Source: Pelagibacterales bacterium SAG-MED20 (GTDB lineage Bacteria; Pseudomonadota; Alphaproteobacteria; Pelagibacterales; Pelagibacteraceae). From it: a stretch of 64,000 bases of DNA. The position numbers and the translations under genes were made by a program. Under the pieces are notes generated by a model. It was given only the letters and a program-made list of their open reading frames with translations. It was not told the origin of the DNA and did no database searches. The stretch is from assembly GCA_014653975.1 (NCBI GenBank), contig JACWDR010000001.1, positions 180,944 to 244,943 of the forward strand. The letters are read 5' to 3'. Below are positions 19,980-23,373 of the stretch, piece after piece; the first letter of the stretch is position 1, and each line of letters opens with the position of its first letter.

Positions 19980-20302
19980 CTTATCTAGTTAATGAAAAAT
20001 GTATTAAATGTAAACATACTACTTGTGTTGAGGTTTGCCCAGTTGATTGTTTTTATGAAGGAAAAAATATGCTTGTAATTAAACCTGATGAGTGTATAGA
20101 TTGTGGCGTTTGTGAGCCTGAGTGTCCTGTCGATGCCATAGTTGCTGATACTGAAAGTGGAAGTGAGAAATGGTTAGAAATGAATACAAAATACTCAGAA
20201 ATCTGGCCAAACATAAGTGAAAAAAAAGATCCTCCAGAAGATCATAAGAAATACACAAATGAAGAAAATAAGCACGACAAATATTTTAAAGAAAATCTTT
20301 AA
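19976..20302 (+). CDS. fdxA: Seven-iron ferredoxin
   Basis: [21 protein letters not shown] and [16 protein letters not shown]. Confidence 0.95.
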
Positions 20303-21203
20303 GAAAAATCCATTGAAAAAGACAAAAAAAAGTACTGTAAAAAAAGTATCTAAAGTTTTCAAAAAAAACAAAAGTAAAGCTCAAGCGAAGACTAAAGTAG
20401 TTTCAAAAAAATTACCTATAAAAAAACCAAAAATTTCAAAAAAGATTAAGATCATAAAATCAAAGATTAAAAAAAATTTAAAAACTGCAAATAAACTATC
20501 AAACAAAAGTTCTGCATCTGAAAAAATAGAAACAAAAACTGATAATTTAAGAATTTCTAAAAATAATGAAATAAAGCCAGAAATTAAAAAAGTAAAAAAA
20601 CAAGAATCAGAAAAAAAAGAATACAAGGTTAAAGACTATGTTGTTTATCCAAAACATGGTGTAGGTCAAATTACAGAATTTAAAAAAATAAATATTGGGG
20701 GAATAGAAGTTGAAACATATGTACTCAAATTTGAAAAAGATAAAGCTAACGGAATGGTTCCAGTAAATAAACAGTCTCATCTTAGAGCTCTAGCAACTAT
20801 TAATCAGGTGAACAAATGTATATCCATTTTAAAAAGCAAACCAAAAGTTAAAAGATCAATGTGGAGTAGAAGAGCTCAAGAATATGAGGCAAAAATTTCT
20901 TCTGGTAAAATTTATGATCTTGCTGAAGTTGTTAGAGATTTAAATAAAGGTGATGACTTGATGGTTGACCAATCTTATAGTGAGAGACAACTTTTTGAAA
21001 AAGCATATGAAAGAATCTTATCAGAATTTCAGATAGTAATGGGTGTGTCATTAGAAGATACACAAAAAAAACTAGATAAAGCATTAAAAAGAAATTTAGT
21101 GGGACAACAGGCACAAACGAAACCTATTACCCCTACCACCACCACAAAACTTGCAGAACCAGAAGTTTCTGACGCTGATCAAGTTACTGAAACTGAAGAT
21201 TAA
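20259..21203 (+). CDS. CarD/CdnL-family transcription regulator with Lys-rich N-terminal tail
   Basis: CarD domain [26 protein letters not shown]..; start uncertain (ATG 20217/20259 or TTG 20313); acidic C-terminus. Confidence 0.85.
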
Positions 21204-21212
21204 ATAACGCGC

Positions 21213-21257
21213 AAAAAAAAACGCCTCTCACACAAATCGTTATGAGAAGCGTTTTTT
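21213..21257 (+). terminator. Bidirectional terminator between carD and small basic-protein gene
   Basis: AAAAAAAACGCCTCTCA / TGAGAAGCGTTTTTT, one mismatch in stem. Confidence 0.85.
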
Positions 21258-21272
21258 GAAAAGATTAAGATA

Positions 21273-21362
21273 CTATCTTTTTCTTCTTTTCGCTTTTTTA
21301 GCTTTTTTAGCTTTTTTCTTAGTTTTCTTTTTAGCTTTTTTAGCTTTTCTTCTTGTAGCCAT
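21273..21362 (-). CDS. 29-aa Lys/Ala/Arg-rich protein
   Basis: Reads MATRRKAKKAKKKTKKKAKKAKKAKRRKR then TAG; SD GGGAG upstream of ATG; flanked by promoter and terminator. Confidence 0.8.
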   Translation of the reverse strand: MATRRKAKKAKKKTKKKAKKAKKAKRRKR

Positions 21363-21374
21363 CTTTAGCTCCCT

Positions 21375-21403
21375 GTTTAAGTTAAACGAATCAAAATGAT
21401 TCG
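21375..21403 (-). promoter_or_regulatory. Two stacked inverted repeats in leader of small basic-protein gene
   Basis: GTTTAA-g-TTAAAC (21375-21387) and CGAATC-aaaat-GATTCG (21387-21403), both perfect. Confidence 0.7.
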
Positions 21404-21414
21404 CTATTAACTTA

Positions 21415-21443
21415 TTTTTATTTTTTTATGCACTTGATGTCAA
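21415..21443 (-). promoter_or_regulatory. Sigma70-type promoter for small basic-protein gene
   Basis: Minus strand TTGACA (21443-21438), 17 nt spacer, TAAAAA (21420-21415). Confidence 0.55.
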
Positions 21444-21562: not shown

Positions 21563-23281
21563 TTAAAAAAGTTTTTCTAGTTCTAATTTATAATTTTTTA
21601 TAATTTTATATCTTTTTAATTTTAAAGTTGGTGTCATCATACCATTTTCAATTGTAAATTGATCCTTACTAACAATAAATTTTTTTATTTTTTCTATTTT
21701 AGAAAGATTTTTGTTTATTTTGCTTATTTCGTCTTGAATTTTTTCGTTTGTAACGTCTTTATGTTCAGAACTTAAAACTATTATGCTAACTAAGTATGGT
21801 TTATTATCTCCATAGACTAAGCTTTGTTCAATAAAATTAGATTTATTTAAATCATTTTCAATTTTAATCGGTGAAATATTATCTCCTCCTGGAGTAATAA
21901 TAATATCTTTTTTTCTATCTGTTATTTTTAAAAACTCTCCATCAAACTCTCCAATGTCACCTGTCGATAACCAACCATTTTTTAGAACTTTATTTGTTTC
22001 ATTTTCATTTTTCCAATAACCTAACATTACATTTTCACCTTGAACCAGTATTTCTCCATCTTCAGCTATTTTAACTAAATTTCCTTTAAATGGTTTTCCC
22101 ACAGTTTCGACTCTCAGATCATCTATCGAATTACAGCTCACTACTGGAGAAGCTTCTGTTAAACCATATCCTTGAAGTGTTGGTAAACCAATAGCATTTA
22201 AAAAAGATCCCACTTCTTGGTCTAGGGCTCCGCCCCCTGAAACAAATGCTTTTAAATTTCCTCCAAATTGACCCTTAATTTTTTTTCTAACCAATTTTGT
22301 ACAGATAAAATTAATTACTTTTTCAATAAGTGAAAATTTTTGTTTGTTCAATTTTTTTTTACCTAGATTAATTGTTTTTTTTATTAAAAAACTTTTTAAA
22401 CCAGTGGCTTTACTAAAAGATGCATTTATTTTTTGATACAAATTTTGATAAAATCTTGGAACTGCTGTCATTATCTCAGGCCCACATTCATTCATATTTT
22501 TAATCAACTTTTCAATGCTTTCAGCATAAAAAACTTTTGCACCAACTGCTATCTGGACAAACTGGACTGTATGTTCATACGAGTGAGATAGGGGAAGCCA
22601 TGTTAAAAATTTAGGATGATTTGAGATCATTGGTTTTAATAACTCACATGATCCCTCACAATTATTTAATATACCACCATGACTTAACATTACACCTTTT
22701 GGATTACCTTGAGTACCTGAGGTATAAATTATGCATGCAATATCTTTTCTTTCAATTTTTAAGTTTGAAAAGTTATTAATTTCATATTCATCTTCTTGAA
22801 AAATTTCATCAATATCTAAATTAATATATTTTTCAAAATCTAAATCAAATTCAGCATTAAGGTTACATACAGGATCAAAAATTATAACTTTTTTGATAAA
22901 ATCTTTTTTTGGAATTATATTTTTTATCTTCTTATATTGAACACTATCAGAAACAAAAATAATTGAAGGAGTGCAGTCATTTATAATATATTCATAGTCT
23001 CTTTCTGTATAAGTTGTATAAGCTGGGACAGTAATACCTTTTGACATCATAATAGATAGATCAGCTATCATCCATTCTGGTCTATTTTCAGAAATTAACA
23101 AACATCTGTCACCTTTTTTAATATATCTATTAATTTTTTTTGATAGCTTAATTATATTTAAGTAGACATCTTCCCAAGAATATTTTTTACTTTTATTTTT
23201 TAAAGAATATAAAAAAATATCTTCACTATTTTGCTTTTTATATTGATTATAAAATAATTCTAATAAATTGTTTATCATCAT
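21563..23281 (-). CDS. Long-chain acyl-CoA synthetase (AMP-binding family)
   Basis: CIIYTSGTQGNPKGVMLSHGGI, QGYGLTEASPVVS, STGDIGEFD. Confidence 0.92.
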   Translation of the reverse strand: MMINNLLELFYNQYKKQNSEDIFLYSLKNKSKKYSWEDVYLNIIKLSKKINRYIKKGDRCLLISENRPEWMIADLSIMMSKGITVPAYTTYTERDYEYIINDCTPSIIFVSDSVQYKKIKNIIPKKDFIKKVIIFDPVCNLNAEFDLDFEKYINLDIDEIFQEDEYEINNFSNLKIERKDIACIIYTSGTQGNPKGVMLSHGGILNNCEGSCELLKPMISNHPKFLTWLPLSHSYEHTVQFVQIAVGAKVFYAESIEKLIKNMNECGPEIMTAVPRFYQNLYQKINASFSKATGLKSFLIKKTINLGKKKLNKQKFSLIEKVINFICTKLVRKKIKGQFGGNLKAFVSGGGALDQEVGSFLNAIGLPTLQGYGLTEASPVVSCNSIDDLRVETVGKPFKGNLVKIAEDGEILVQGENVMLGYWKNENETNKVLKNGWLSTGDIGEFDGEFLKITDRKKDIIITPGGDNISPIKIENDLNKSNFIEQSLVYGDNKPYLVSIIVLSSEHKDVTNEKIQDEISKINKNLSKIEKIKKFIVSKDQFTIENGMMTPTLKLKRYKIIKNYKLELEKLF

Positions 23282-23288
23282 AAAATTT

Positions 23289-23373
23289 TGGTGGGCGAAG
23301 AGAGAATCGAACTCTCACTTCTTGCAAAACACGATTTTGAGTCGTGCGCGTCTACCAGTTCCGCCATTCGCCC
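23289..23373 (-). tRNA. tRNA-Leu (CAA), CCA encoded
   Basis: Reverse complement GGGCGAATGGCGGAACTGGTAGACGCGCACGACTCAAAATCGTG...TTCGCCCACCA with variable arm. Confidence 0.95.

Follow-up and report, generated by a model that had tools for sequence, protein, structure and literature searches.

The window analysed here is a 64-kb stretch (64,000 nucleotides) of the genome of Pelagibacterales bacterium SAG-MED20, and on its minus strand lies an open reading frame (ORF) of 29 codons plus a stop (21273-21362) that encodes a peptide rich in lysine, arginine, and alanine. The translation, MATRRKAKKAKKKTKKKAKKAKKAKRRKR, contains 15 Lys, 5 Arg, and 6 Ala, just as the preliminary description of this DNA had counted, and carries a net charge of +20; the charge ranges from +15 to +35 across the window's family. 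The convergent neighbor is carD (20217-21203, plus strand; start tentative), with CarD_TRCF_RID and CarD_C domains, and the upstream neighbor in the window's family is a gene for an AMP-binding enzyme (21563-23281, minus strand). The carD ORF has a feature of its own—a long, Lys-rich, tail-like N-terminal extension that precedes the CarD domain (20217-20606, plus strand) and varies in length among relatives (open frames of 204-328 aa); at one locus, L175, a K/A-rich frame also lies ahead of carD. Directly upstream of the AMP-binding gene is a tRNA gene (23292-23373, minus strand; Rfam RF00005) that overlaps spurious ORFs on both strands. An Rfam search at the gathering score returned no structured-RNA match over the peptide gene.

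Signals for expression surround the ORF on the minus strand: a TTGACA -35 element (21438-21443) that is near-invariant in relatives, a probable -10 element, TAAAAA, 17 nt from it (21415-21420), a GGGAG Shine-Dalgarno site 6 nt ahead of the ATG (21369-21373), and a G+C-containing hairpin terminator with a T-run (about 21213-21257). All of these, and the ORF itself, sit where the preliminary description had placed them. Promoter scoring gave the arrangement TTGACA/18/AAAAAT (10/12), and transcription is predicted to start near 21408; a transcript from this position folds 3.9 standard deviations below its own shuffles. Relatives keep the promoter, the Shine-Dalgarno site—(A)GGGAG or a close variant in nearly all of them—and the terminator, as well as a leader hairpin described below. 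The terminator probably serves the convergent carD gene too, acting in both directions; a simple terminator scan of the window did not list this hairpin (21257-21213).

A chance ORF in AT-rich DNA can be ruled out by simulation and by conservation. Among ORFs 20 aa or longer across the 64-kb window, the peptide ORF alone reaches a K+R content of at least 62%, and 120 simulated windows (40 each at Markov orders 1, 3, and 5) contained no ORF at or above this threshold. The ratio pN/pS is 0.32 over 6,105 pairs, a value that is descriptive only because the pairs lack phylogenetic independence. In the window's family, the 2,987 codons of 117 pooled copies include not one GAA/GAG, CAA/CAG, AAT/AAC, GAT/GAC, or ATA, with AAA (1,173) and AAG (491) both used freely, and AAA lies one or two bases from each of the absent codons (acidic, Gln, Asn, ATA). 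Conservation of the peptide is highest at its two ends, M-(A/P)-K-(R/K)-(R/K)-K at the N-terminus and a basic stretch, usually R-R-R-R, at the C-terminus; the middle varies by K/A/T units.

Used as a direct query, the 29-mer matched a single relative in 59 genomes. Low-complexity sequence is down-weighted in such searches, which leaves the query nearly matchless and uninformative; we therefore scanned carD loci directly for small K/R-rich ORFs. The scan took in two Pelagibacterales families, that of the window (12 genera with a carD match) and a sister family, and found such an ORF, convergent to carD, at every scanned carD locus whose contig reaches it. The resulting collection, which may count some species twice, holds 128 copies with the frame kept and 71 distinct peptides. 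The exceptions are L094, where the contig stops inside carD, and L035 and L139, where the contig end cuts the ORF and C-terminal peptide codons are still visible. A sole frameshifted copy (L018, 1966-2060) is out of frame by a single base within an A-rich run, which reflects either a sequencing error or a true loss. At another locus (L166, G030:C6), a short contig carries carD and the peptide gene twice, with one copy inverted relative to the other; this probably arose as an artefact of assembly or amplification.

The gene order fdxA-carD-peptide is common to the two families wherever the contig extends far enough, and only in the window's family does the AMP-binding gene come next. No such small ORF accompanies carD in Sphingomonadales and others (L099-L119) or at about 48 additional loci drawn from other families of Alphaproteobacteria. 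These absences rule out a class-wide neighbor of carD; therefore the gene, as a carD neighbor, looks specific to Pelagibacterales, a comparison that covers the surroundings of carD only. A phage origin was probed by tblastn with a consensus peptide, which gave no match in a test made weak by the low-complexity filter. The preliminary description had argued for a real gene, to be checked by conservation of the frame, the Shine-Dalgarno site, and carD adjacency, and all three are conserved across Pelagibacterales. Judged by these comparisons of sequence, the peptide ORF is a true gene, conserved throughout Pelagibacterales.

The peptide comes in a range of lengths. In the window's family it spans 19-58 aa and is typically 21-30 aa, and genus g12 has the longest forms, which reach 58 aa and contain K/A/P repeats; at the same locus the sister family encodes 40-99 aa with KKKAAPKKK repeats, for example MEELKVIFAKARKKAKKKAAPKKKRKAAKRKPAKKKAAPKKK... 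In both families the differences consist of in-frame K/A/P-rich units. Pooled residues from the window's family are about 0.77 K+R and 0.18 A, with no acidic codon, and Pro is prominent in the longer forms only. The homology proposed between the short forms and the long forms of the sister family rests on locus, promoter, and leader, not on meaningful alignment. The sister-family repeats resemble the tails of histone H1 and lend support to the H1-like reading that had been put forward from the window's sequence.

The 5' leader has conserved features of its own. A hairpin at the predicted 5' end, CGAATCA-TTT-TGATTCG (21387-21403, minus strand), carries GANTC in both arms, which match CGAMTCR/YGAKTCG, and next to it is a second perfect inverted repeat, GTTTAA-C-TTAAAC (21375-21387, minus strand). 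Both repeats had been noted before and both are present; however, the leaders of relatives conserve the CGAATCA hairpin and not GTTTAA-C-TTAAAC, which is thereby ruled out as a conserved element. The CGAATCA box itself (21397-21403, minus strand) is invariant in 126 of 127 leaders. Its spacing from the first base of TTGAC is 37-42 nt (39-41 nt in 119 of 123), whereas its distance to the ATG is not fixed. A hairpin using part of the box is predicted in all 99 distinct leaders; its 3' arm reads GATTCG in the window's genus and GATTTG in others, G-U pairing being retained. The stem of genera g9 and g12 is shifted to TCAC.../...GTGA, leaving CGAA unpaired yet still invariant, and the box is therefore constrained for more than pairing. 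As a multi-gene operator the CGAATCA palindrome is ruled out by its single occurrence in the window's genome, and among six genomes the pattern TTGAC-N32-48-CGAATCA marks the peptide gene alone in five and has one extra match in the sixth.

Pairing near the start codon takes other forms in some lineages. Genera g9 and g12 have ACTCC or GCTCC able to base-pair around the Shine-Dalgarno site, which in the sister family is abutted by a short CCC-loop-GGG hairpin; both arrangements hint at translational control. The sister-family leader (L150-L160) also has an additional AACCTCTAACTAAA stretch, which together with the CCC-loop-GGG hairpin is possibly a translational switch. The box and hairpin at the very start of the mRNA probably set the timing or amount of the product, or protect the mRNA.

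One specific proposal for the box is that CGAATCA is a CcrM-methylated GANTC read by GcrA or through its methylation state, so that the gene would be expressed in step with replication; we treat this as a tentative idea that is unlikely on present evidence. The complement of the box, TGATTCG, matches the extended GcrA motif YGAKTCG (as cited within PMC7987155) in 126 of the 127 leaders, and a spacing held to the promoter instead of the ATG, along with the invariance of CGAA where it is unpaired, speaks for the proposal too. Of 26 genomes, 23 encode GcrA, and the window's own is among them. A full-length N6/N4 methylase of the CcrM type occurs once in each of six complete related genomes, and the one that was checked matches the CcrM structure 6pbd (E=6e-140); these searches used PF01555, PF18284 being the wrong family, and found no CcrM-type methylase in the window's own genome, which is 71% complete. 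GANTC is depleted in the whole window (120 sites vs 166 expected, sd 11), which is what CcrM methylation of the genome would lead one to expect.

However, the box lies downstream of the probable transcription start, at about +5. In Caulobacter, the start sites that are active at 40-60 min carry GANTC between positions -35 and -10 (PMC4287350), a placement that the peptide promoter does not share. Many other genera keep just one of the two GANTC sites, the extended motif is not consistently present around SAR11 gcrA and ccrM, and few GcrA targets are predicted in Ca. Pelagibacter ubique (PMC7987155). Replication-coupled control of the peptide gene is possible from its sequence features; the full scheme—an order-wide protamine-like peptide, mostly of 20-35 residues, packaging the SAR11 chromosome under a methylation-sensitive CcrM/GcrA promoter that couples nucleoid compaction to replication—is decidedly doubtful. 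SAR11 has been reported to lack CtrA (PMC2877005), and the invariant 5' box offers an opening to test methylation-linked control in a CtrA-less group.

As for the product, we favor a minimal polycation of the H1-tail or protamine type, presumably disordered, that binds nucleic acid non-specifically and acts chiefly in the nucleoid; we give this reading a probability of roughly 0.68. Once made, such a peptide would be held to nucleic acid by charge, regardless of sequence, and its main partner would be chromosomal DNA, where it may neutralize phosphate and compact or organize the nucleoid alongside three HU/IHF-family proteins. Its length could drift by whole K/A-rich units because total charge would matter, not a fold. 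Each of the nine genomes searched encodes three HU/IHF-family proteins; the peptide, at 29 aa, does not contain the PF00216 HU/IHF domain (about 90 residues) or any other Pfam match. Searches of Pfam and NCBIfam at E up to 10 gave no relevant match for short or long forms, a test that composition correction weakens.

A short basic peptide could also bind RNA, ribosomes, or polyphosphate, and the main rival to a nucleoid polycation is an RNA-binding or ribosome-associated peptide that stabilizes rRNA, not DNA, in the manner of eL41 and bTHX. These two proteins are about 25 aa long and mostly Lys/Arg, and the SAR11 peptide resembles eL41 in size (about 25 aa) and Lys/Arg content; a conserved short promoter-to-terminator unit would fit a highly expressed gene, and both ends of the peptide, N-terminal M-(A/P)-K-R-R-K and the basic C-terminus, are fairly well conserved. 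However, repeat units stretch the length from 19 aa up to 58 aa within one family and as far as 99 aa in the sister family, which would be unusual for a protein seated in a fixed rRNA pocket, and K/A/P repeats are of the H1-tail type. A PDB search at E up to 10 found no sequence match, ribosomal chains included, though low complexity is filtered in this test and weakens it. We consider the ribosomal role rather unlikely.

Far less probable is a polycation associated with polyphosphate or granules, or a general counter-ion that spares polyamines. The precedent is AlgP, an H1-like protein with KPAA repeats that is found on polyphosphate granules and is required for their even spacing (PMC9239181), and for a counter-ion role charge by itself would be enough; however, the neighbors at the locus (fdxA, carD, and the AMP-binding enzyme) give no pointer to polyphosphate or polyamine metabolism, and the N-terminal helical domain of AlgP is absent from the SAR11 peptide.

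The gene is easily missed by annotation, having about 25 codons and a sequence that composition-corrected searches discard; trypsin-based proteomics can easily overlook the peptide too, which would be cut to fragments. SAR11 cells rank among the most numerous on Earth and their genomes are streamlined; a gene retained at essentially all intact loci in such organisms is therefore likely to be important. If the peptide binds DNA, it would rank with the smallest known nucleoid proteins and would provide a minimal model, found in nature, of a bare polycation organizing a chromosome.

The closest likenesses are found among H1-like and other highly basic proteins. Among the papers searched, none mentions histone H1 together with SAR11. 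The peptide shares with H1-like proteins a Lys/Ala(/Pro)-rich, low-complexity composition free of acidic residues and in-frame length variation of basic repeats; it matches no curated profile, and we therefore say that it works like these proteins and do not class it as a member. eL41 and bTHX have fixed lengths and defined residues, whereas the SAR11 peptide changes length by repeats. Protamines are likewise very short and nearly all basic, with an arginine-rich end; in contrast, they are Arg-dominated proteins of sperm chromatin, the SAR11 peptide is Lys-dominated and bacterial, and there is no sign of common descent. The tails of AlgP and PhaF in Pseudomonas have H1-tail-like K/P/A repeats similar to those discussed here, and DNA binding has been shown for these tails, the K/A/P-rich repeats of AlgP among them (PMC9239181); however, those tails are attached to an N-terminal helical domain, and in SAR11 the tail-like part is the entire protein. 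Hc2 of Chlamydia and BpH1 of Bordetella are also Lys/Ala-rich and of low complexity, vary in length by in-frame repeats, and have K/A/P repeats in common with the sister-family forms. Hc2, a Lys/Ala/Pro-repeat protein that binds DNA (PMC2848022), is 165-237 aa long, in contrast to the 20-35 aa of most SAR11 peptides at their fixed site beside carD; biochemically, the peptide is of a familiar kind, but its form is unusually small.
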